Shown piece by piece: positions 38,560 through 52,500 of a stretch of 64,000 nucleotides of DNA. Position numbers and translations under genes: made by a program. A model generated the notes under the pieces. That model had not been told where the DNA came from. It worked only from the letters and a program-made list of their open reading frames with translations, and searched no databases. Numbering within the stretch: position 1 is the first letter of the stretch; each line of letters starts with the position of its first letter. Origin of the DNA: Alphaproteobacteria bacterium (GTDB taxonomy: Bacteria > Pseudomonadota > Alphaproteobacteria > Rhodobacterales > Rhodobacteraceae); NCBI GenBank assembly GCA_030429495.1, contig JAUIFH010000003.1, positions 124,001 to 188,000 on the forward strand, read 5' to 3'.

Positions 38560-40067
38560 TGGCTTGCCTTCCATTCCTCACGCAATGCGCGGCGATTGAT
38601 CTTGCCATTGGCCGTGACCGGGATCGCTTCCCGGCGCAGGTAGAGTCGAGGCTGCTTGTAGCGGGCAAGACAGGTTTCCGCGTGGCCGGCCAGCGCGTCT
38701 TCTGCCGCTTCACCGGCATAAAACAGCGCGATGACACTCGCATCTGTCTTGACGGGCAGTTCGACCGCCGCGCTGGCGGTGACGCCGGGATACGCGTTCA
38801 GCGCGGCCTCGATCTCTGCCGGCGACACCCTGAAGCCGCCGGCATTGATCATGTCGTCAGCACGGCCCAAGCTGGTGATGGCGCCATCCTGGGCCATCAC
38901 TGCCATGTCGCCGGTTTGGAACCAGTCGCCTTTTGGTGCACAAATTGTTTCTCCCTCGACCGTACCGAGGAACAAGCCGGGATCGCTGTGGTGCACGGCA
39001 AGAATGCCGGCCTCCCCGCGCGGCACCGGGGCGCCATCGGGGCCGAGAATGGCGACATGCCGGCCCGGCTGCGGATAGCCCGTTGCTCCATCCGGCGCGG
39101 GATGGGCAGGCGAGGATGACAGGAAGGTGGAGCATTCCGACATCCCCATCGCTTCATGCAGATCGGTCCCCGTCGCCGCGCGCCAGCTTTCCCGGATCGA
39201 GAGCGGCAGCTTCTCGCCCGCCGACAGGCCGTGCCGCAGGCGGGGCAGGGACAGCGTCGGGTTTTGCGCAAGGATACGACGGTAAACTCCGGGGACAGCG
39301 GCGAAAATTGTCGCGTCGAAGCGTTTGGCGAAAAGCGGCAGTTGGTCGACGGCCACGCCGTCAGCGGCGACCATCGCGGTCGCGCCCACTGCCCAGGGGT
39401 CGAACAAACCGGCCCCCAACGTGTAGGTCCAGTTGAGCGCACCGGCATGAAGCAGCCGGTCGTCGGGACCGATGCCAAGCCAGCCGCCGCGCATCATCCG
39501 CCGCGCCCAGACCGCACGATGAGCATGCGCGACTGCACGCGGCACTCCAGAAGTGCCTGAGGTGAAGACGATATAGGCCAGACGGTTGGGATCGCCCATC
39601 GCCCAGTCCGCCGGCGCCAGCGCCTCAAAACCGCGCAGCTCGGTTTCGCTCAGGACCGGGCAGGGGTTAGCCGCGGGCAGCGCCACGCCCTCCGCCGCGA
39701 CGATCAGCCTTGGGTCGATCACGGCGCAGAGCTTCGCGACCTCGGCCGGCGTCAGGCCGGCTGCCGTCGGCACCGGCACGATCCCGACCGTGATCGCACC
39801 GAGAAAGGCGAGCGGAAAGCTGACCCCGTTGCCCAGCCGCAGCAGCACCCGGTCGCCCGGGCCGAGCCCGCGCGCCAGAAGGCCCGTCGCGACACCGCGC
39901 ACGGCCGCGTCAAGGCGCGCATAGCTCCAACGTTCGGTTCCCGCCGGACGCACGATCTGCAGCGCGATATGGTCGGGGCGCGACTGCGCCGCAGCCAGCA
40001 CATAGTGCGCGAGGTTGAACGGCGCGGGACAGGGCGCGAGGGAGGCGGAGTCGGTGACGGACAGCAT
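38556..40067 (-). CDS. AMP-dependent acyl-CoA synthetase/ligase
   Basis: A 503-residue adenylate-forming enzyme of the ANL superfamily that activates a carboxylic acid to acyl-AMP and then usually acyl-CoA. The P-loop YIVFTSGTSGVPRAV is near residue 170, the A5 region EAMGMSECSTF near 305, A7 DWFQTGD near 375, A8 GRADDMINAGGFRVSP near 395, and the catalytic Lys is in TANGKINRRAL at the C-terminus. Overall it resembles benzoate-CoA-ligase-type enzymes, but the acid is not predictable. It leads the CoA ligase-DsbA-MFS operon and is divergent from an XRE-cupin regulator that may control it. Confidence 0.88.
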   Translation of the reverse strand: MLSVTDSASLAPCPAPFNLAHYVLAAAQSRPDHIALQIVRPAGTERWSYARLDAAVRGVATGLLARGLGPGDRVLLRLGNGVSFPLAFLGAITVGIVPVPTAAGLTPAEVAKLCAVIDPRLIVAAEGVALPAANPCPVLSETELRGFEALAPADWAMGDPNRLAYIVFTSGTSGVPRAVAHAHRAVWARRMMRGGWLGIGPDDRLLHAGALNWTYTLGAGLFDPWAVGATAMVAADGVAVDQLPLFAKRFDATIFAAVPGVYRRILAQNPTLSLPRLRHGLSAGEKLPLSIRESWRAATGTDLHEAMGMSECSTFLSSSPAHPAPDGATGYPQPGRHVAILGPDGAPVPRGEAGILAVHHSDPGLFLGTVEGETICAPKGDWFQTGDMAVMAQDGAITSLGRADDMINAGGFRVSPAEIEAALNAYPGVTASAAVELPVKTDASVIALFYAGEAAEDALAGHAETCLARYKQPRLYLRREAIPVTANGKINRRALREEWKASQ

Positions 40068-40152
40068 GATCCTTCGCTACGCTTCCCGCCGGGGCGTTGC
40101 AAGCCGGGGTCGAAAGGCGGTAATGCACAGGAGCCTCTCCAGGGATGAACAG

Positions 40153-42427
<2,275 letters not shown>

Positions 42428-42483: not shown

Positions 42484-43482
42484 TCAGTCCCGGATACGGC
42501 GGCCATTCTCGTCGAACGCAAAGGCGTCGGCCGGATCGAAGGCGAGTGCAATCCGCTGATCGACCCGGTGATCGTGCTGACGGAAAAGGCGGACCGTGAC
42601 CGTATCGCCGGCATCGGTGGTGACCAGGAGGTTGGTGTCACCACCCAGACGCTCGACATGCGCGACGGTTCCCGCGAGCGGGCCATCCGCCGCAACCCGA
42701 AGGTGCTCGGGCCGGATCCCAAGCGTGGCACCCTTCGCCCCAAGCGGGGCGGCGGGCAGGAAGTTCATCGATGGCGCGCCCAGGAAGCCCGCGACAAACT
42801 GGTTGTCGGGGTCGTTGTAAAGCTGCATCGGGCTGCCTACCTGCTCGATCCGCCCGTCACGCAGCACAACGATGCGATCGGCCAGCGTCATCGCCTCGGT
42901 CTGGTCGTGGGTGACGTAGATCATCGACGCGCCGAGTTCACGGTGCAGGCGGGCAATTTCGACCCGCGTGGCCATGCGGAGCGCGGCATCGAGATTGGAC
43001 AGGGGTTCGTCAAAGAGGAACAGTTCGGGCTTGCGCACGATGGCGCGGCCGATGGCGACGCGCTGGCGCTGACCGCCCGAAAGCTCTGCCGGCCGGCGTT
43101 TCAGGTACTCATCGAGCGAGAGCATCCGTGCCGCCATGGCGATGCGTTCGGAGATGACCGTTTTCGCCTCGCCTGCCTGCTTCAGCCCGAGCGCCATGTT
43201 CCCCTCGACATCGAGATGGGGGTAGAGCGCGTAGGACTGGAAAACCATCGCGATGCCGCGTTTGGCGGGGGGCGTGGTCGTGACATCCGACCCGCCGATG
43301 CGGATCGTCCCGGAACTGGCATCTTCCAGCCCTGCGATGACGCGCAGGAGCGTGGACTTGCCGCAGCCCGAGGGGCCGACGAACACAATGAACTCCCCTT
43401 CGGAGACGGTCAGGTCGATATCCTTCAGAACGTGCACTTCGCCGAATGATTTGTTTATTTTTTCAAGTGATAAGGCGGTCAT
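42484..43482 (-). CDS. Sugar ABC transporter ATP-binding protein (UgpC/MsmK type)
   Basis: A 332-residue ATPase of carbohydrate-uptake-1 transporters. Walker A GPSGCGKST is at 36-44, the signature LSGGQRQRV begins at 134, and Walker B FLFDEPLSNLD with the D-loop follows. The C-terminal TOBE domain (TLGIRPEHLRVAADGPLAG) is typical of MalK-like subunits. It is the last gene of the minus-strand operon that starts with the MurQ-like gene, and it would power the two permeases encoded upstream. The gene lies 9 bp after the Gfo/Idh gene. Confidence 0.94.
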   Translation of the reverse strand: MTALSLEKINKSFGEVHVLKDIDLTVSEGEFIVFVGPSGCGKSTLLRVIAGLEDASSGTIRIGGSDVTTTPPAKRGIAMVFQSYALYPHLDVEGNMALGLKQAGEAKTVISERIAMAARMLSLDEYLKRRPAELSGGQRQRVAIGRAIVRKPELFLFDEPLSNLDAALRMATRVEIARLHRELGASMIYVTHDQTEAMTLADRIVVLRDGRIEQVGSPMQLYNDPDNQFVAGFLGAPSMNFLPAAPLGAKGATLGIRPEHLRVAADGPLAGTVAHVERLGGDTNLLVTTDAGDTVTVRLFRQHDHRVDQRIALAFDPADAFAFDENGRRIRD

Positions 43483-43491
43483 CTTAAGGTC

Positions 43492-44511
43492 CTACAATGC
43501 TACGGGGCGGCCGGTGCGGATACTTTCGTCGGCGGCAAGACAGATGGCGAGAGAGGCGACGGCGTCGTCCATGTGGCGGGTCAGGTCGATATCCTCGGCG
43601 ATGGCCCGAAGGATGTACGCCTGCTCGGCGTCGCACAGCGCCTGATGGCCGGGCTCATCGGGGAAGTCGACATCGGTATCGCTGCCGTCTGCCCGGTGAA
43701 TGCGGAGCGCACCGACCTTGGTGTGGCCATCGACACTGTCGCTTTCGGGGTGCGTGCCCGAGAGGATGGAGACCGCGCCGTTCGCCGACACGACATCCTT
43801 CACGAAATAGGCGACCTCGGACATCATCGGGCCCCAACCGGCCTCATACCAGCCCACGGAGCCGTCTTCAAAAACGACCTGGAACTGACCGTAATTGTAC
43901 ATGTTTTCCGCGATCTCATCCGAGAGGCGTAGACCCATGCCATGCACCCGGACCGGCTTCGCATCTGTGATCTGGCACATGATATCGACATAATGAACAC
44001 CGCAATCGACGATAGGCGGTGTCGTCTGCATCAATTGCTTATGCGTCTCCCAGGTTGGCCCGGTCGACTGCTGGTTGAGATTCAGCCGAAAGACATACGG
44101 CCCGCCAAGGGTGCGCGCCTCGGCGACGAGACGGGTCCAGGACGGATGGTGGCGCAGGATGTAGCCGACGACGAGTTTGCGACCGTTGACCTTCGCGCAG
44201 TCTACCACGCGCCGCGCATCGGCGACCGTGGTCGCAAGCGGCTTTTCCACGAAAACATGGGCGCCGGCCTCCATCGCCGCCACTGCATAATCCGCATGGC
44301 TGTCGGAATAGGTTGCGATGACGGCAAGGTCGGGCGGGGTTTCAGCAAGCGCGCGATAGAAGTCGTCGAAGACGGGGTAGGACCGAAGGGCAGGCGTGTC
44401 GCAACGCCCCGACCGGTTCACCAGCCCGACGATCTGCGATTGCCGGTTCTCATGATGGGCGAGCGCGTGACTCATTCCCATATTGCCAAGGCCGGCGATG
44501 AGGACCCTCAT
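43492..44511 (-). CDS. Gfo/Idh/MocA-family oxidoreductase
   Basis: A 339-residue NAD(P)-dependent sugar or inositol dehydrogenase-type protein. The Rossmann domain (RVLIAGLGNMGMSHALAHH) is followed by VFVEKPLATT, the EKP motif with the catalytic lysine, and the C-terminal domain with DCGVHYVDIMCQ. It overlaps the second permease gene by 4 bp, so it belongs to the sugar operon. It could oxidise or epimerise the imported sugar; relatives act on free sugars, anhydrosugars and inositols. The exact substrate is not readable. Confidence 0.9.
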   Translation of the reverse strand: MRVLIAGLGNMGMSHALAHHENRQSQIVGLVNRSGRCDTPALRSYPVFDDFYRALAETPPDLAVIATYSDSHADYAVAAMEAGAHVFVEKPLATTVADARRVVDCAKVNGRKLVVGYILRHHPSWTRLVAEARTLGGPYVFRLNLNQQSTGPTWETHKQLMQTTPPIVDCGVHYVDIMCQITDAKPVRVHGMGLRLSDEIAENMYNYGQFQVVFEDGSVGWYEAGWGPMMSEVAYFVKDVVSANGAVSILSGTHPESDSVDGHTKVGALRIHRADGSDTDVDFPDEPGHQALCDAEQAYILRAIAEDIDLTRHMDDAVASLAICLAADESIRTGRPVAL

Positions 44512-45347
44512 TTGACCGCTCCCGATGTGATGCCGCGGATGAGCTGGCGCGAGAAGATGACGTAGAGGACGAGGACCGGCAGGATCGCCAGCGACAGCGC
44601 CGACAGAACCGCGTTCCAGTCGGTCACGAACTGGCCGATGAAGACCTGGCTGCCAAGCGTCAGGGTCTTTGTACTTTCGCCCGGCGCGAGGATCAGGGGA
44701 AACCAGAGGTCATTCCAGATCGGGATCATGTTGAAGACCGCAACCGTCGCCATCGACGGGCGAACAAGCGGCAATACAAGTTTGAAAAATATGGCATACT
44801 CACTCATGCCATCAATGCGGCCGGCATTCTTGAGGTCATCCGAGACCTGGCGCATGAACTCCGACAGGATGAAGACGGCAAGCGGCAGGCCCTGCGCAGT
44901 ATAGACGAGGATCAGCGCCCAGAGCGTGTTCACCAGCCCCGTCTGCACCATCATGTCAAGGATCGCGACCGTGCCGATACGGATCGGGATCATGATCCCC
45001 AGCGCGAGGTAGAGACCCATCAGCGTATTGCCCTTGAACCGGTATTCCGAAAGGGCAAAGGCCGCCATCGCGCCAAAGAGGAGGATGAAGAACAGGGACG
45101 CGACAGTGACGATGAAGGAGTTCTGGAAGTAGAGGAAGAAATCCCCCTGCTTCATCACCGTCTGGTAACCGATCATCGAGAAGCTGTCGGCATCGGGCAG
45201 GGCGAGCGGTTCGCGGAAGATCGCCTTGCGGGTCTTGAACGAGTTGATGAGGATCACCGCCACCGGGAAGAGGGCGATCACGGTCCAGGTGATCAGCGCG
45301 GCATGGGCGGCGAAGGAATTCAGCGGGTTGTTGCGGGCCTTGTTCAT
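44508..45347 (-). CDS. Carbohydrate ABC transporter permease (MalG type)
   Basis: A 279-residue inner-membrane permease with six hydrophobic segments. The coupling-helix motif EAA-like segment is readable as DDLKNAGRIDGMSEYAIFFKLVLP, which docks on the ATPase. It pairs with the MalF-type permease encoded 10 bp upstream. Length and topology match CUT1 transporters. Its stop overlaps the Gfo/Idh start by 4 bp. Confidence 0.93.
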   Translation of the reverse strand: MNKARNNPLNSFAAHAALITWTVIALFPVAVILINSFKTRKAIFREPLALPDADSFSMIGYQTVMKQGDFFLYFQNSFIVTVASLFFILLFGAMAAFALSEYRFKGNTLMGLYLALGIMIPIRIGTVAILDMMVQTGLVNTLWALILVYTAQGLPLAVFILSEFMRQVSDDLKNAGRIDGMSEYAIFFKLVLPLVRPSMATVAVFNMIPIWNDLWFPLILAPGESTKTLTLGSQVFIGQFVTDWNAVLSALSLAILPVLVLYVIFSRQLIRGITSGAVK

Positions 45348-45357
45348 GTCATTCCCC

Positions 45358-46269
45358 TCAGAACTGATAGCGCCGCATGCGCGTCTGGATCAGGAACAGG
45401 TAGATGCAGACGCCCGTAAGGATGATCGCGAACATCGCCGTGGCGATGGCCGATCCCATATGCGGGTCGCCAAGCTGCAACTGGAAACCGAAGAAGGTGC
45501 GGTAAAGGAAGGTGCCGAGGATATCGGTCGCGAAATCCGGCCCTGCCAGCGCGCCTTGCGCCGCATAGATGAGGTCGAAGGCGTTGAAATTGCCGACGAA
45601 TGTCAGGATCGAGATGATCCCGATCGACGGCAGGATCAGCGGCAGCTTGATCTTCCAGAAGGCCGACCAGCCGGTAATCCCGTCGATCTCGCCGGCTTCC
45701 AGAATCTCCTCGGGGATTGAAAGAAGGGCGGCGTAGATCAGCATCATCGGGATACCGACGAACTGCCAGACCGAGATCAGCGCCAGCGTCGTCAGGGCGT
45801 ATTCCTCTCTCCCCAGCCATGGCGCGAAGAGAGATTTCAACCCCACCGCGTCCAGCATTCCGGGCGCGATGCCCCAGATCGGCGAAAGAATGAGCTTCCA
45901 CGCGAAACCGACGATAACGAAAGACAAAATCGTCGGAATGAAGATCGCCGAGCGGTAGAGCGCAGCGAAGCGCAGGCGCGGATGACTGAGGATCGCCGCC
46001 AGCGCGACGCCGATCGGGTTCTGGACGAGCATGTGCACTACGAAGAACCAGGCATTATTGCCAAGCGCGTTCCAGAAGCTGTCCGACCATCGCGGATCGC
46101 CGAACAGGGTCCGAAAGTTCGCGAGCCCGGAAAACACCCGGCCTTCATCCCCATTCGTATAAAGAGCGAGGCGCAAGGTGTTGAAAAGAGGCCAGATCAT
46201 GATCGCTGTGTAGACCAGAACCGCTGGCGCGAGGAAAACGATCACGTGGCTCTTGATGCGTGTCTGCAT
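45358..46269 (-). CDS. Carbohydrate ABC transporter permease (MalF type)
   Basis: A 303-residue inner-membrane permease with six helices. The coupling motif is EEILEAGEIDGITGWSAFWKIKLP. I use the ATG at 46269 (MQTRIKSHV), which has GGGGGA just upstream; the ATG at 46281 adds four residues but sits directly after a strong hairpin. It follows the binding-protein gene and precedes the MalG-type permease. Confidence 0.92.
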   Translation of the reverse strand: MQTRIKSHVIVFLAPAVLVYTAIMIWPLFNTLRLALYTNGDEGRVFSGLANFRTLFGDPRWSDSFWNALGNNAWFFVVHMLVQNPIGVALAAILSHPRLRFAALYRSAIFIPTILSFVIVGFAWKLILSPIWGIAPGMLDAVGLKSLFAPWLGREEYALTTLALISVWQFVGIPMMLIYAALLSIPEEILEAGEIDGITGWSAFWKIKLPLILPSIGIISILTFVGNFNAFDLIYAAQGALAGPDFATDILGTFLYRTFFGFQLQLGDPHMGSAIATAMFAIILTGVCIYLFLIQTRMRRYQF

Positions 46270-46284
46270 GGCGTCCCCCATTGC

Positions 46285-46335: not shown

Positions 46336-47595
46336 TTATTGCTGCGGCGCGTACCAGGAGGCGAGGCCATCCTGAAGGCGCTGGCCGGCGGCCTCGGGCG
46401 TCTCGGTTCCCCGGATGACGTTGGCGCTGGCATTCCAGGTCTCGTTCTCGAGGTTCGGCGTGCCGCGCGACAGGATCTGGTAGGTCGAGCGGATCGTCGA
46501 ATGGCATTTGTCACGCCACGACACGAATTCCTGCGCCAGCGGGTCCTCCATCGCGACCGGCGCAGAATTCAGCGAGAAGAAGCCGGGCAGGGCGTTGGCA
46601 TAGAGCGTGGCGAATTCGGCCGACCCGACCCAGTCGAGAAACGCCTTCGCCTCATCCGGATGCGCCGAGGCGGCGTTCATGCCGATGGCGATGTCGGTAT
46701 GGTCCGAGATGTAGCACTCGTCCCCGGCATTCGCGACCGGCGGATTGAAGGCGCCCATCTCGAAGTCGACGAGGCTGTTGAAGCCCGAGATCTCCCAGGA
46801 ACCGGCGGGATAGATCGCGGCGCGGCCAAGCGTGAAGAGGTTCTGGCTGTCCGGATAGGTCTGCGCCTCGTATCCGTCGCCCAGATAGGCGCCCCATTTG
46901 GCCAGTTGCCGGAACGGCGCGACCCAGGGCTCGTCCGTCAGCTTCTCTTCGCCCTTGATCAGTGCGAGCCGTCCTTCCTCACCCTTCCAGTAGTTCGGGC
47001 CCACATTGTTGTAGCCCATCGTCGCGGCTTCCCACTGGTCGTTGGTGCCCATCGCCATCGGGATATAGGTGCCGTCTTCCTTGATCTTGTCGAGCGCGGC
47101 GAAGAAGTCGGCCTCGGTCGCCGGAACCTCGATCCCAAGTTCGGCGAAAGCGTCCTTGTTGTAGATGAAGCCGTGGATGACCGAGGCCATCGGCACGCAG
47201 AACGTGGCCGCGCCGTCATCGGTCTGCCAGGCGGATTTCGCGACGTCCGAGAAATTCGCCATCGCCGCAAGGCCCGACAGGTCCGCCAGCTTGCCGCCCT
47301 CGTAAAGCGCGAGCGAAGCGTCGAACGGGCGACAGGTGATCAGATCGCCCGCCGATCCCGCGTCGAGTTTCGAGTTCAGGACGGCGTTGTACTCCGCCGG
47401 CGCCGAGGGCGTGAACTGAACCTTGATGCCCGGATGGCTCGCCTCGAAGGCGGGGATGATCTGGTCCTGCCAGATCGAGAGGTCGTCATTGCGCCAGCTC
47501 TCGATCGTCAGCGTCACATCCTGCGCTGACGCGGCCAGCGCCGAGCCGAGGAATGTCGTGGCCATGAGAAGGCCGGTCAGTCGTTTGGATGTCAT
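46336..47595 (-). CDS. Sugar ABC transporter substrate-binding protein
   Basis: A 419-residue periplasmic solute-binding protein (family 1, MalE-like). Residues 1-24 form a signal peptide ending ASAQDVT. Mature features are LTIESWRNDDLSIWQDQIIPAFEAS and many aromatic residues (YPAGSWEISGF, NYWKGEEGR) that would stack on a sugar. It starts 2 bp after the MurQ-like stop, linking the transporter directly to amino-sugar breakdown. The ligand is predicted to be an amino sugar from context, not from the sequence itself. Confidence 0.92.
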   Translation of the reverse strand: MTSKRLTGLLMATTFLGSALAASAQDVTLTIESWRNDDLSIWQDQIIPAFEASHPGIKVQFTPSAPAEYNAVLNSKLDAGSAGDLITCRPFDASLALYEGGKLADLSGLAAMANFSDVAKSAWQTDDGAATFCVPMASVIHGFIYNKDAFAELGIEVPATEADFFAALDKIKEDGTYIPMAMGTNDQWEAATMGYNNVGPNYWKGEEGRLALIKGEEKLTDEPWVAPFRQLAKWGAYLGDGYEAQTYPDSQNLFTLGRAAIYPAGSWEISGFNSLVDFEMGAFNPPVANAGDECYISDHTDIAIGMNAASAHPDEAKAFLDWVGSAEFATLYANALPGFFSLNSAPVAMEDPLAQEFVSWRDKCHSTIRSTYQILSRGTPNLENETWNASANVIRGTETPEAAGQRLQDGLASWYAPQQ

Positions 47596-47597
47596 CG

Positions 47598-48518
47598 TTA
47601 GCTCCCTGGGTTGGTCTTGTGTTTCCGGTCACTGCCCTCAGTCCGGGCGAGCGCCGCGCGAAGATTGCCGTCGCTGGCGCGCAGCAGCGCCTGCGCTTGG
47701 TCTGACGTGGCACCGCAGGCGATAAGGACGGCCGGCTTGACGGCGCCCTCTGCCGCGTCGAGCGCCGATGCAGCGGCGGCGGCATCGACGCCGGCGATGG
47801 CCTCCACCATAACCCGCGCCCGCATGCGCAGCTTCGTGTTGTCGGCCACGAGGCCGACCATCATCCCGTCATGAACCTGACCAAGACGGATGCCCATCAG
47901 GGTCGACATGAGGTTCAGCGCCACCTTCTGCGCGGTGCCGGCGCCCATTCGGGTCGATCCGGCAATCACTTCGGGCGGGGTCGGAAGGCAGATGGCCACA
48001 TCCGCACCATTAAAGATCGGGGCGCCGTGGTTGTTCGCGACCGCTATGATCCGCGCGCCCCGCGCAAGGGCCGCTTTCGCGGCGGCAAGCGGGTAGGGCG
48101 TCCGCCCCGAGGCGGTGACCGCAATGACGACGTCACCTTCGGCCAGCGCAGCGCCTGCGCGCGCGCCGTCATCGGCGTCATCCTCCGTCACGCCGGGCAT
48201 CCGGGAATCGCTGGGCAGTCCGCCGGCCATCAGAATTACAATCCGGTCGGCGTCGACGCCGAACGTCCCCGGAATCTCCAGCCCGTCAGACATCGCCATG
48301 AGCGCCGACGAACCCGCCCCGACATAGACAAGACGCCCACCTGACCGGATCGACGCCGCCATGATCTCGGCCCCGGCGGCGATTTCCGGCAACGCGCCCG
48401 AGACCGCCTGAAGCGCATCGGCCTGCGCCGAGAGCAGTGCGCCAAGGATGGCGCCGCTTTCGCGGTCATCCAGCCCTTTGGCGGCTGGGTGCAGGCGTTC
48501 AGTGGCAGCTGACGTCAT
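47598..48518 (-). CDS. murQ: N-acetylmuramic acid 6-phosphate etherase (MurQ-like)
   Basis: A 306-residue SIS-domain lyase. MurQ cleaves the lactyl ether of MurNAc-6-phosphate to give GlcNAc-6-phosphate and D-lactate. The signature GSTRMGAGTAQKVALNLMST is intact. The positions I equate with the catalytic glutamates of E. coli MurQ are kept (Glu81 in LEIPGTFG, Glu112 in TEDDADD). The canonical TSGRLGVLDASE segment is replaced by SSALMAMSDGLE, so this is a divergent member. The C-terminus has the usual small helical domain. The ATG at 48518 follows GGGGGG. It heads the transporter operon. Confidence 0.85.
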   Translation of the reverse strand: MTSAATERLHPAAKGLDDRESGAILGALLSAQADALQAVSGALPEIAAGAEIMAASIRSGGRLVYVGAGSSALMAMSDGLEIPGTFGVDADRIVILMAGGLPSDSRMPGVTEDDADDGARAGAALAEGDVVIAVTASGRTPYPLAAAKAALARGARIIAVANNHGAPIFNGADVAICLPTPPEVIAGSTRMGAGTAQKVALNLMSTLMGIRLGQVHDGMMVGLVADNTKLRMRARVMVEAIAGVDAAAAASALDAAEGAVKPAVLIACGATSDQAQALLRASDGNLRAALARTEGSDRKHKTNPGS

Positions 48519-48540: not shown

Positions 48541-48568
48541 AGCATACCTATCTAATACCTTTTGTCCA
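48541..48568 (-). promoter_or_regulatory. Candidate promoter of the murQ-transporter operon
   Basis: On the minus strand TGGACA (48563-48568) and TATGCT (48541-48546) are separated by 16 bp, 22 bp before the ATG. The two AGGTAT repeats occupy the spacer and -10, so a bound regulator would block polymerase. Confidence 0.5.
48544..48560 (-). promoter_or_regulatory. Operator copy 1: tandem AGGTAT repeat
   Basis: On the minus strand AGGTAT occurs twice with start points 11 bp apart (48555-48560 and 48544-48549), one helical turn. It lies inside the murQ promoter. A second copy with the same layout lies 95 bp away in the opposite orientation. The GntR-family protein encoded in the divergent operon is the obvious candidate ligand. 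Confidence 0.6.
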
Positions 48569-48654
48569 CATCAAATTGCGCACCACCAAGTTTTCCCGCA
48601 GTATCGGCGGATTGGTACCTAAAATTCAGCAGATAGGTCTTTCATTGTCATTAT

Positions 48655-48671
48655 AGGTATTATAAAGGTAT
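48655..48671 (+). promoter_or_regulatory. Operator copy 2: tandem AGGTAT repeat
   Basis: AGGTAT occurs at 48655-48660 and 48666-48671, again 11 bp apart, just before the kinase ATG at 48676 and covering its ribosome site AAAGG. Both copies share the pattern AGGTATTA-N3-AGGTAT. Binding here could block transcription or translation start of the right-hand operon. Confidence 0.6.
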
Positions 48672-48675
48672 TTTC

Positions 48676-49554
48676 ATGATGCAACCCGACTCGATCCTCA
48701 TCGGCCTCGACGGCGGCGGGACCTCCTGCCGCGCGGCGCTTGTTCGCGGGGACGGGTCCGGGCGGATTGAAATGACCGGCGGACCGGCGAACGTCTCCGA
48801 CTTTGCCGGCGCGATGACGCGGGTGCGCGACCTTGTCCTGCGCCTGGCCGCGGCCGCCGGGATCGATTCCGATGAGTTGGGCGGCGCGGCCGTCCATGCC
48901 GGATTTGCCGGCGTGATGGACGACATGATCGCGGCCCGCGTCGCCGCGGAATTGCCCTTCGCCCGCGTAACGGTGACGGACGACCAGCCGACCATGATCG
49001 CGGGCGCGCTCGGCGCGCGGGACGGCGCGGTCGCCGCAATCGGCACGGGGTCCTTCGTCGGACGCCAGTCGGGGGGCGCAATCCATGTGCTTGGCGGCTG
49101 GGGTTTCGCGCTCGGCGACCAGGCATCCGGCGCCTGGCTGGGCCGGAGCCTGCTGTCAGCCGCGCTTCTGGCCGGGGACGGGATCGCACCGGGGAGCGCG
49201 CTGACGAACGCCATTTCCACGCGTCTTGGCGGCGCGCCGGGCATGGTGGCCTTCGCGCTTTCATCCGCGCCAAACGACTACGCCGCGCTCGCGCCCGAGG
49301 TCGTCGCGGCTGCAACAGAGGGTGATGCGGTCGCCGCGCGGCTGATGGGGGAGGGCGCGGCCTATATCGAATCCGCGCTCGCCGCGCTCGGGTTCTCGGC
49401 GGGCGACACGCTTTGTCTTGCGGGAGGGCTCGGACCGGCCTATGGCCAATGGCTTTCCGCCGGAACGGCGGCGGGCATCGCCGCCCCGCAAGGGACCGCA
49501 CTCGACGGCGCGCTTGCGCTTGCCGCGCGTGCGGCGGAAGGGGCGCCGGCATGA
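48676..49554 (+). CDS. BadF/BadG/BcrA-type N-acetylhexosamine kinase
   Basis: A 292-residue cytoplasmic kinase of the ASKHA fold. The phosphate loop GLDGGGTSCRAAL near the N-terminus, TDDQPTMIAGAL, and GTGSFVGR with GGWGFALGDQASGAWLG identify the GlcNAc-kinase branch of the BadF/BadG/BcrA family. That branch includes clostridial MurK, which phosphorylates both GlcNAc and MurNAc. In this context it should make the 6-phosphate needed by MurQ. The ATG at 48676 or 48679 may serve as start. It overlaps the GntR gene by 4 bp. Confidence 0.88.
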   Translation: MMQPDSILIGLDGGGTSCRAALVRGDGSGRIEMTGGPANVSDFAGAMTRVRDLVLRLAAAAGIDSDELGGAAVHAGFAGVMDDMIAARVAAELPFARVTVTDDQPTMIAGALGARDGAVAAIGTGSFVGRQSGGAIHVLGGWGFALGDQASGAWLGRSLLSAALLAGDGIAPGSALTNAISTRLGGAPGMVAFALSSAPNDYAALAPEVVAAATEGDAVAARLMGEGAAYIESALAALGFSAGDTLCLAGGLGPAYGQWLSAGTAAGIAAPQGTALDGALALAARAAEGAPA

Positions 49555-50315
49555 AGATTTCCGACTATCTCGACCCGGAACTCTGGCTCAACCCCGCGAA
49601 CGGGCCGCTCTACGTCCAGCTTCGCAAACGGATCGAGGCCGGGATCGCCTCGGGCTTTCTCGCGCCCGACATGCCGTTGCCGCCAGAGCGGGAGATCGCC
49701 GCGCTGACCGACCTGTCGCGGGTCACGGTGCGCAAGGCTATCGCCGAACTGGTGGACAAGGGGATGATCCTGCAGAAGCAGGGGTCGGGTTCCTATGTCG
49801 CGCCGGCCCGCCCACGCGTCGAACAATCCCTGTCGCGGCTGACGTCCTTTTCCGAGGACATGGCCCGGCGCGGCTTCCAGTCGGAGATGGACTGGCTTGA
49901 ACGCGGGCTGTTCCTGCCGTCGCCGGATGAGGTCACGGCGCTTGGCCTTGGCGCGGGCGATCAGGTCGCACGGCTGGCCCGACTGCGCCGCGCCAATGGC
50001 CGCCCGATGGCGATCGAGCGAGCATCGCTGCCGACCGATATCCTGCCCAATCCCCTGGCCGTCACGCATTCGCTTTACGAGGTTTTGGGCGAGGCCGGGT
50101 TGCGGCCGGTCCGGGCCGTCCAGAAAATCTCGGCCGTCAATCTTGCCGACAACGACGCCGGGTTGCTTGGGGTCGCACCGATGACGGCCGGTCTCAGGAT
50201 CGAACGCACATCCTATCTGCCCGAGGGCCGCGTGGTTGAATACACCCGCTCGCTCTATCGCGGCGATGCCTATGATTTCGTTGCAGAACTACGCCTTCCG
50301 GAGAGCCTGACATGA
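49551..50315 (+). CDS. GntR-family (HutC/NagR type) transcriptional regulator
   Basis: A 254-residue regulator. The winged helix-turn-helix spans about residues 18-80 (PLYVQLRKRIEAGIASGFL, LPPEREIAALTDLSRVTVRK) and the UTRA effector domain about 95-245 (ARLRRANGRPMAIERASLP, RTSYLPEGRVVEYTRSLYRG). This HutC-like architecture matches NagR/DasR regulators, which respond to GlcN-6-phosphate or GlcNAc-6-phosphate. Overlaps with the kinase and SIS genes (4 bp each) place it in the operon. It most likely represses both divergent operons through the AGGTAT repeats. Confidence 0.93.
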   Translation: MKISDYLDPELWLNPANGPLYVQLRKRIEAGIASGFLAPDMPLPPEREIAALTDLSRVTVRKAIAELVDKGMILQKQGSGSYVAPARPRVEQSLSRLTSFSEDMARRGFQSEMDWLERGLFLPSPDEVTALGLGAGDQVARLARLRRANGRPMAIERASLPTDILPNPLAVTHSLYEVLGEAGLRPVRAVQKISAVNLADNDAGLLGVAPMTAGLRIERTSYLPEGRVVEYTRSLYRGDAYDFVAELRLPESLT

Positions 50316-51343
50316 CCGATAACCAAAGCCAGATGCGCCGCGAGATTCTTGAGATTCCGGATGCCGTCGGCCGTCTTCTGGACCAGGGAGGCGCGGCGAT
50401 CCGTGCCACCGCGAAGGCCGCGCGCGATCTCGACCCGGCTTACATCGCAACTGTGGCGCGGGGATCGTCCGATCATGTCTGCACCTACCTGAAATACGTC
50501 TCGGAAATCACGCTCGGACTTCCCGTTGCCTCCATCGGCCCGTCCGTCGCTTCGATCTACCATGCACCGCTGCGGCTTGGTGGCAGTCTGTGCCTGTCGG
50601 TCTCGCAGTCGGGCAAGAGCCCCGACATCGTGGAACTCGCGCGCGTCGCCGGGGCAGGGGGCGCAATGACCGTCGCGGTCACGAACGATGCCGCTTCGCC
50701 GCTCGCGCAGGCAAGCGACCGTGTGCTCAACATCCATGCCGGGCCGGAACTCTCGGTCGCGGCGACGAAGACATTCGTCACCTCTGCCGTTGCCGGTCTG
50801 GCGCTGATCGCCGAGGCGGCGCGCGACAAGGCGCTTCGCGCGGCCATAGCGGGCCTGCCGGCGCATCTGGAGGCCGCCGCGCGGGCGGATTGGGGCGCGC
50901 TTGTCGACCGGCTCGCGCGCGCCGAATCGCTTTATACCCTGGGCCGTGGCCCGGGCTTCGCAATGTCGGGGGAAGCGGCGCTGAAGCTCAAGGAAACCTG
51001 CCAGATCCACGCCGAGAACTATTCCTCGGCCGAAGTGCTGCACGGGCCGGTTTCCATCGTTTCGCAGGACTTCCCGGTTCTGGCCTTCGCCGCCGGGGAT
51101 GCCGCGGAACCCGCGGTTCTCGACGTGGCCGAGGCGCTGGCGGGGAAGGGCGCGTCGGTCTTCGTGACATCCGGCGACGCCACGAACGCACAGGCGCTGC
51201 CACGTGTGGAAACCGGCCATCCGCTGACCGACCCGATCGCGCTCATCGTGTCGTTCTACGCCATGGTAGAGCAGGTGGCGCTGGCCCGTGGGGTCGATCC
51301 CGACCGCCCGCGCCATCTCAACAAGGTGACGGAGACGGTGTGA
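50312..51343 (+). CDS. SIS-domain sugar-phosphate isomerase/deaminase (NagB-II type)
   Basis: A 343-residue protein with two SIS domains, equal to the isomerase half of GlmS without the glutaminase domain. Evidence is ARGSSDHVCTYLKYVSE, VSQSGKSPDIVEL, TVAVTNDAASPLAQAS and LKETCQIHAENYSSAEVLHGP. In amino-sugar clusters such proteins act as GlcN-6-phosphate deaminases that make fructose-6-phosphate and ammonia. It lies between the GntR gene (4-bp overlap) and nagA (1-bp overlap), which supports that role. Confidence 0.9.
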   Translation: MTDNQSQMRREILEIPDAVGRLLDQGGAAIRATAKAARDLDPAYIATVARGSSDHVCTYLKYVSEITLGLPVASIGPSVASIYHAPLRLGGSLCLSVSQSGKSPDIVELARVAGAGGAMTVAVTNDAASPLAQASDRVLNIHAGPELSVAATKTFVTSAVAGLALIAEAARDKALRAAIAGLPAHLEAAARADWGALVDRLARAESLYTLGRGPGFAMSGEAALKLKETCQIHAENYSSAEVLHGPVSIVSQDFPVLAFAAGDAAEPAVLDVAEALAGKGASVFVTSGDATNAQALPRVETGHPLTDPIALIVSFYAMVEQVALARGVDPDRPRHLNKVTETV

Positions 51344-52500
51344 TGGCCGACCTCTATCACGGCGCCGATATCTTCGACGGCACCCGTCTCGGCCCCGGTG
51401 CGCTTTTGGTCGAGGACGGCAGGATCGCCGCGATACTTTCGCCGGATGCGGCGCCCGCCGACGCCAGAAGGATCGCGCTGGATGGCGGTGTTCTCGCGCC
51501 TGGCTTCGTCGATCTGCAACTGAACGGCGGTGGTGGTGTGATGTTCAACGACGCCCCGGACGTCGCCACGCTGCAACGGATAGCCGAGGCCCATGCACGG
51601 CTGGGATCGCTGGCGCTGCTGCCGACGCTGATCACCGACACGCCGGACCAGACCCGTGCGGCGGTGGCGGCGGTCGAGGCGGCCGTTGCCGCCGGTATTC
51701 CCGGCATCGCCGGGCTGCATCTGGAAGGGCCGCATCTCAGCCTTGCGCGCAAGGGCGCGCATGACCCGGCGCTGATCCGGCCGATGGAGCGGGAAGACCT
51801 CGCATTCCTTCTCGACGCGGCAACCCGGCTTCCGTGCCTTCTGCTGACCGTTGCGCCGGAAAGCGTAACGAATACGCAAATCGCGACGCTCGCCGGGGCC
51901 GGTATCGTCGTGTCACTGGGCCATACGGACGCGACATCTGCAACCTGCCGCGCAGCCGCGCGGGCCGGTGCGCATATGGCGACGCATCTCTTCAACGCGA
52001 TGAGCCAGCTTGGAAATCGCGAACCCGGCCTTGTCGGCGCGGTGCTTGCCGATGGCGCACTCAGCGCCGGCCTGATCGCCGACGGCATTCACGTCCATCC
52101 CGAAGCCATGGCGACGGCCTTGCGTGCCAAGACGGGGCCGGGCGCGATATTCCTTGTCACCGACGCAATGGCGCCAGCGGGATCGGACATCACGCACTTC
52201 ACGCTGAACGGACGCGAGATACGCCGCGAGAACGGACGCCTGACGCTCGCCGACGGAACGCTGGCCGGTGCCGATCTCGACATGGCGCGCGCGATCCGCG
52301 TTCTTTGCGACGACGTCGGACAACCGCTCGACCGCGCGCTTGCCATGGCGACAAGCATTCCAGCGCGGATTGTCGGGCTTGATGACCGCCACGGATCGCT
52401 CATTGCCGGCAGTGATGCCGATTTCATCCATCTGTCCGGCAGCCTCCATCTGAAGGGCGTCTGGCGGAAGGGGATCGCGCTGGCGTCCACTTCAGGATGA
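51343..52500 (+). CDS. nagA: N-acetylglucosamine-6-phosphate deacetylase
   Basis: A 385-residue metal-dependent amidohydrolase that deacetylates GlcNAc-6-phosphate to GlcN-6-phosphate. The start of the barrel (GVLAPGFVDLQLNGGGGVMFND), the metal-site Glu128 in HLEGPHLS, the metal-ligand histidines in LGHTDATS and THLFNAMS, and the substrate residues in DGIHVHPEAM and VTDAMAPAG with the catalytic Asp are all visible. The ATG overlaps the SIS stop by one base. It closes the right-hand amino-sugar operon. Confidence 0.95.
   Translation: MADLYHGADIFDGTRLGPGALLVEDGRIAAILSPDAAPADARRIALDGGVLAPGFVDLQLNGGGGVMFNDAPDVATLQRIAEAHARLGSLALLPTLITDTPDQTRAAVAAVEAAVAAGIPGIAGLHLEGPHLSLARKGAHDPALIRPMEREDLAFLLDAATRLPCLLLTVAPESVTNTQIATLAGAGIVVSLGHTDATSATCRAAARAGAHMATHLFNAMSQLGNREPGLVGAVLADGALSAGLIADGIHVHPEAMATALRAKTGPGAIFLVTDAMAPAGSDITHFTLNGREIRRENGRLTLADGTLAGADLDMARAIRVLCDDVGQPLDRALAMATSIPARIVGLDDRHGSLIAGSDADFIHLSGSLHLKGVWRKGIALASTSG

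Follow-up and report, generated by a model that had tools for sequence, protein, structure and literature searches.

The dre-sites of the regulator DasR are built from inverted half-sites. The same holds for Bacillus subtilis NagR (YvoA), whose dre-sites place inverted half-sites round one centre and are not direct repeats (available part of PMC4333415). NagQ, a member of the HutC subfamily of GntR proteins, binds direct repeats of TGGTATT instead (accessible text of PMC4494728, citing Yang et al. 2006). As far as the available text of PMC5343134 goes, NagQ motifs are tandem repeats, and NagQ is counted in 31 genomes of 10 groups, belonging to the alpha- and betaproteobacteria and some gammaproteobacteria. 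In several gammaproteobacterial groups both the consensus and the structure of the NagQ motif differ (same source); thus, direct repeats do not define every NagQ. Direct repeats are also found in the operator of Escherichia coli NanR, where three dimers bind three GGTATA repeats cooperatively, and a 32-residue N-terminal extension is required for this cooperativity (available part of PMC8012715).

The locus described here lies in a window of 64,000 nucleotides from a member of the Rhodobacteraceae (contig JAUIFH010000003.1, positions 124,001 to 188,000); all positions below are those of the window. An earlier note, made from the sequence, had described two paired AGGTAT repeats between two sugar operons, lying in opposite orientation and each consisting of two direct repeats one helical turn apart. 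Both pairs, AGGTATTAGATAGGTAT and AGGTATTATAAAGGTAT, are found exactly where it placed them, on the strands it gave and with no mismatch (Table 1), and their arrangement is as it described. The note also held that a direct-repeat operator would be unusual. This is correct in relation to NagR and DasR, but not in relation to HutC-subfamily NagQ, for which TGGTATT direct repeats are published in the accessible literature. The direct-repeat layout is therefore an already known property of this type of regulator and is not new here.

Table 1. Features of the gap between the two operons and of the genes on either side (window positions).
Feature	Position	Strand	Remarks
Two ABC permeases, Gfo/Idh/MocA dehydrogenase, UgpC-type ATPase	42484..46281	minus	remainder of left operon; permease names taken from annotated relatives
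Sugar ABC transporter substrate-binding protein	46336..47595	minus	left operon
N-acetylmuramic acid 6-phosphate etherase (MurQ type)	47598..48518	minus	left operon, gene 1
-10 TATGCT, etherase promoter	48541..48546	minus	its TAT shared with the second half-site; sixth-base T in 60/68
Etherase-side repeat pair	48544..48560	minus	AGGTATT-AGAT-AGGTAT; half-sites 11 bp apart; putative NagQ operator, conserved in relatives
-35 TGGACA, etherase promoter	48563..48568	minus	promoter scan; TNGAC here in 62/68 relatives' etherase-side sites
GGTCTTT, part of conserved GGnCTTT	48636..48642	plus	upstream of kinase operator; CTT in 51/56
Kinase-side repeat pair	48655..48671	plus	AGGTATT-ATAA-AGGTAT; half-sites 11 bp apart; putative NagQ operator, conserved in relatives
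Candidate -10 TATTAT, kinase promoter	48658..48663	plus	begins in first half-site; sixth-base T in 55/56
BadF/NagK-like N-acetylglucosamine kinase	48676..49554	plus	right operon, gene 1
GntR/UTRA (HutC subfamily) regulator P0001, assigned NagQ	49551..50315	plus	right operon, gene 2
Glucosamine-6-phosphate deaminase, NagB-II-like (SIS)	50312..51343	plus	right operon
N-acetylglucosamine-6-phosphate deacetylase NagA	51340..52500	plus	right operon

The names of the kinase, deaminase and regulator are given by family, since their NCBIfam equivalog scores fall below the cut-offs (NagK 136.9 of 370; NagB-II 295.4 of 430; for the regulator, no equivalog reaches its cut-off). NagA (304.3 of 225.65) and the etherase subfamily (287.1 of 168) score above their cut-offs. 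The mechanical list of open reading frames starts the etherase at 48545, within the operator; the likelier start is the ATG at 48518, with GGGGGG before it. Just beyond the ABC-transporter operon, at 40015-42427, a regulator of XRE-cupin type adjoins a phosphoglucomutase.

The hexamer AGGTAT by itself is unremarkable. It occurs nine times in the window against 4.64 expected, and four of 100 shuffled sequences also reach nine. The signal is therefore the pairing at 11 bp. AGGTATTANNNAGGTAT with up to two mismatches has two matches in the 64-kb window, where 0.01 is expected, and exact AGGTAT-N5-AGGTAT occurs only at these two places in the whole 3.83-Mb genome. The genome has 36 matches in total, the 34 others with two mismatches each, compared with 53 for a control pattern. 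A search of the whole genome for the pattern thus gives no exact site elsewhere, and no candidates there for further members of the regulon.

Conservation was assessed in the loci of 109 relatives (1.07 Mb), made up of 80 from one set and 29 of 30 from a second, with the window's own locus excluded. Some loci in the two sets come from the same species, and 157 distinct sites remain once identical ones are removed. The earlier note had proposed to see whether the hexamers are kept in orthologous gaps, and they are strongly kept: direct pairs of GGTAT number 173 at the 11-bp spacing, and no other spacing up to 60 bp has more than nine. A palindromic reading was rejected, as no inverted arrangement of GGTAT stands out in the 109 loci (highest count five), and inverted half-sites round one centre, as in a dre-site, are thus not seen. 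An exact direct pair is present in 103 of the 109 loci. Three of the other six have pairs with one mismatch (L039, L049, L105), in two the sequence stops less than 700 bp ahead of the gene (L009, L080), and in one (L118) no pair is seen, either exact or with one mismatch. Among the 80 loci, 28 have an exact site on only one side and four on neither; two of these four have less than 700 bp upstream.

The closest loci belong to Rhodobacteraceae and their kin, such as Defluviimonas sediminis, whose regulator is 80% identical. Farther away, Sinorhizobium meliloti and Rhizobium leguminosarum, with regulators 58-60% identical to P0001 over the matched part, have GGTATTTTTTTGGTAT upstream of the kinase and GGTATTTTTTTGGCAT on the opposite strand of the same gap. 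A Paracoccus locus (L124, 60% identity) has only a pair with one mismatch. In distant homologues (45-49% identity) the motif is absent from four of five loci (L122, L123, L126, L127), and the fifth (L121) has a pair with one mismatch. By eye, other repeated-looking motifs such as AATTGGTTTTCCAATTT and TTTGTGCGACGCACG are seen in L122 (5780-5910) and in the upstream gaps of L123 and L127 (45-48% identity), and the family may thus have diverged in the operators that it recognises. At two loci, L091 (plus strand, 0-based 591 and 602) and L103 (minus strand), the kinase side shows a series of three half-sites spaced by 11 bp, and half-site repeats may accordingly be gained or lost as units.

The regulator P0001 has a GntR DNA-binding domain and a UTRA effector domain, as in the HutC subfamily, and its gene clusters with the N-acetylglucosamine genes for kinase, NagB and NagA. 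On family, operon and motif it is assigned as NagQ. The likeness to NagQ consists in direct (A/T)GGTATT repeats, here tandem repeats of (W)GGTATT, that accompany nag genes and the operon of the regulator itself, together with a GntR and UTRA protein. The published consensus is TGGTATT in the accessible text, whereas the first base at the present sites is A. NanR shares direct GGTATA repeats with this locus, but these are closely spaced whereas the present ones stand 11 bp apart, and NanR is a GntR protein of the FadR subfamily whereas P0001 has a UTRA domain. A possible counterpart of the cooperativity extension of NanR was sought at the N-terminus: about 17-19 residues precede the DNA-binding domain in P0001 and its relatives, often with FLxP..W; three relatives (L059, L079, L083) have no W in this N-terminal stretch, yet keep exact sites.

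The nearest solved structures to P0001 are NagR (YvoA; E 1.6e-38) and DasR (E 1.5e-34). In NagR, the bases are contacted by Arg38, Arg48 and Gly69 (available part of PMC4333415). These three residues are shared with P0001, where they align with R47, R57 and G78, and all three are the same in every one of 39 aligned sequences (P0001 with 38 relatives). Thus, the GG of each GGTAT would be read as in NagR, and what differs would be the order of the half-sites.

Co-occurrence of site and regulator was followed with a strict pattern, ANWGGTATYNNAWWGGTAT, in 121 genomes of the order. It gives 37 sites in 22 genomes, with no hits for the control, and each of the 37 is no more than 1.1 kb from a P0001 orthologue; none is found away from the nag locus. 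Of 32 genomes that encode an orthologue (E<=1e-84), 22 have the pattern and 10 do not; it is found in none of the 89 others. A looser pattern, applied to 390 genomes, occurs in at least 122 of them among the matches listed, with scattered extra sites. Four of the extra sites were examined. Three are copies of TGGTATCCAGTAGGTAT at the same place near a gene start; they look like coding conservation and were set aside, and where read (L252) the sequence lies inside an aminotransferase-like frame. The fourth (L255, 373-2699) is a second locus with etherase, kinase and regulator, additional to the one that its genome has elsewhere. This second locus has an exact operator on the etherase side with TAGAC upstream. 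Class-wide, the bare motif gives 19 sites in 18 of 289 genomes against 26 control hits, which is chance level and uninformative.

The position of the repeats relative to the promoters was compared in 80 loci, where sites classed by strand only give 68 distinct ones on the etherase side and 56 on the kinase side. The etherase promoter reads TGGACA-16-TATGCT (48568-48541, minus), and its 16-bp spacer is filled by the operator. This agrees with the earlier description of the left copy as lying in the spacer and -10 of that promoter, and the promoter scan finds it as well. A ribosome-site motif then follows in 66 of the 68 etherase-side sites. On the kinase side, the T that completes TAT[TC][AG]T, begun in the first half-site, is present in 55 of 56 sites, against 19 of 68 on the etherase side, and none of the 56 has the -35 of the etherase type (TNGAC). 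Two other elements were considered for the kinase promoter and rejected. GGnCTT is at the location of a sigma-70 -35 but is unlike TTGACA, and for the plus-strand promoter TTGTCA-18-TATTTT given by the scan, the T in the last place is found in only 26 of 56 relatives. The scan also gave a minus-strand ATGAAA-16-TATAAT (48677-48650). The operator would thus appear to sit in two promoters at registers that differ by one repeat, or 11 bp.

The right copy had also been said to cover the ribosome site of the kinase, and it does overlap the AGG of a possible site before the ATG at 48676. The gene opens with ATGATG right behind the operator (48676-48681). Among relatives, the kinase ATG lies 19-21 nucleotides from the first G of the operator in 55 of 56 cases, whereas just 35 of the 56 have an AGG at ribosome-site distance. 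A very short leader on the kinase message is therefore possible.

One further property concerns the distance between the two operators, taken from start to start of the 16-base GGTAT-N6-GGTAT sites and amounting to 112 in the window. Of 159 stretches (the window and 158 loci), 140 give a divergent pair, and 111 of these are distinct in sequence. The distances fall into classes of 90-91 (3 gaps), 99-103 (11), 110-113 (44), 120-123 (34), 132-134 (9) and 143-144 (3), and the remaining seven are 72, 95, 130, 136, 152, 165 and 188. None of the 111 gaps has a distance of 104-109, 114-119 or 124-129. For the 107 gaps of 80-150 bp, the vector strength is 0.81 at a period of 10.5-10.75 bp. After thinning by the tree, which leaves about 35 rows separated by more than 0.4 changes per site, it is still about 0.77 (lowest of 20 draws 0.73), compared with 0.45 for the 99.9% point of a uniform null.

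A tree of 86 regulator sequences, built by a quick method and with many open forks, requires at least 26 changes of distance class. Among 61 pairs of nearest neighbours, which are not fully independent, 36 differ by 2 bp or less, 12 by 9-11 bp, five by 19-22 bp, one by 32, one by 6, and six by 36-64 bp. Differences of 3-35 bp lie within 2 bp of whole turns in 18 of 19 cases in these partly dependent pairs, where chance gives 39%; of the six larger ones, two are in register and four are out. Two members of the Rhizobiales, with distances of 136 and 130, are 6 bp apart and their phases disagree. The shifts by whole helical turns (about 101, 111, 121, 133 and 143) suggest cooperation on the same face or looping. 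Selection for a fixed relative face would thus have acted in Rhodobacteraceae and their kin, most simply through contact between the repressor complexes, and such contact is slightly favoured here.

Several other explanations have to be weighed against paired operators of NagQ. The sites overlap -10 elements, as would be seen if they were chance AT-rich repeats or promoter elements with no operator function. This is scarcely credible, as the 11-bp spacing outweighs all others and the conservation of exact pairs in nearly all loci already contradicts it; a real regulatory role for the paired repeats is very probable. Likewise, a DNA motif alone names no protein, and the genome of the window has eight matches to P0001, itself counted, so that another regulator might use the repeats. 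That strict sites in the 121 genomes stand only beside P0001 orthologues, and that the motif agrees with the NagQ consensus in the accessible literature, makes this very improbable. Conservation and co-occurrence give good support to the earlier proposal of direct-repeat operators for the neighbouring GntR protein, and it is highly probable that both elements serve as operators of a HutC-subfamily repressor of the NagQ type, encoded by the second gene of the right operon.

Whether these operators act together is less settled. They may be independent, one per operon, with the register arising from back-to-back RNA polymerases, a shared activator between the promoters, or the like. Since the position of each operator is fixed relative to its promoter, the phasing of operators and that of promoters are indistinguishable by sequence. 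There is a conserved GGnCTTT ahead of the kinase operator, and the accessible text of PMC4494728 classes double sites close to the operons they belong to as independent. On the other hand, little is conserved farther upstream than some 34 bases from the kinase operator or some 20 bases from the etherase operator, so that no shared middle site is visible. The spacing between start codons, placed by a simple ribosome-site rule, is also far less phased than that between operators (vector strength 0.35 against 0.83 in 104 rows). Independence is thus possible but rather doubtful, and promoter-promoter geometry as the source of the register is a live rival to contact between NagQ complexes. The accessible text of PMC4494728, and that of a second paper in which both NagQ and looping occur, ties looping to proteins other than NagQ. 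Looping by NagQ was not found in a body of literature with few subscription papers, which is weak evidence of absence, and the searchable part of that literature likewise mentions neither a helical register between NagQ operators nor the promoter register of the operator.

In the model proposed for NagQ at this locus, each operator would offer two half-sites, AnWGGTATY, that point the same way and, at an interval of 11 bp, lie on a single face of the helix. On the left, bound NagQ would fill the spacer and overlie the beginning of the -10 in the promoter of the etherase and ABC-transporter operon. On the right, it would cover the probable -10 and the start region of the kinase-nagQ-nagB-nagA operon. 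Since bound NagQ would cover both promoters, both operons, nagQ included, would stay off until an amino-sugar phosphate frees the repressor; by analogy, this effector would be N-acetylglucosamine-6-phosphate. Binding and repression at both operons are in this way predicted from the DNA and its conservation. As the spacing of the operators is conserved in helical register, the two complexes would probably be in contact through a small loop or act cooperatively along a single face of the DNA.

NagQ might bind each operator as one dimer that spans the half-sites head to tail, or as two dimers stacked 11 bp apart. Past the second half-site, little is conserved besides the -10 and the ATG; base conservation gives no support for a full second half there, and does not decide the matter. 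The full picture is tentative, and held to be somewhat short of an even chance. It would have a head-to-tail HutC repressor joining two promoter-embedded operators about 111 bp apart in one small repression loop, with the operator sliding by one repeat relative to the -10, and with whole turns gained or lost while the register is kept.

What looked odd at first glance is thus the direct-repeat layout of NagQ, published as far as the accessible sources show, and what appears novel relative to the known NagQ kind is the helical register. The comparative set provides 111 distinct gaps with a clear signature of this register. The phased pair bears on how a HutC protein reads direct repeats when its solved relative NagR binds inverted half-sites, and it makes both the reading of direct repeats and DNA looping testable with short fragments and one purified protein.
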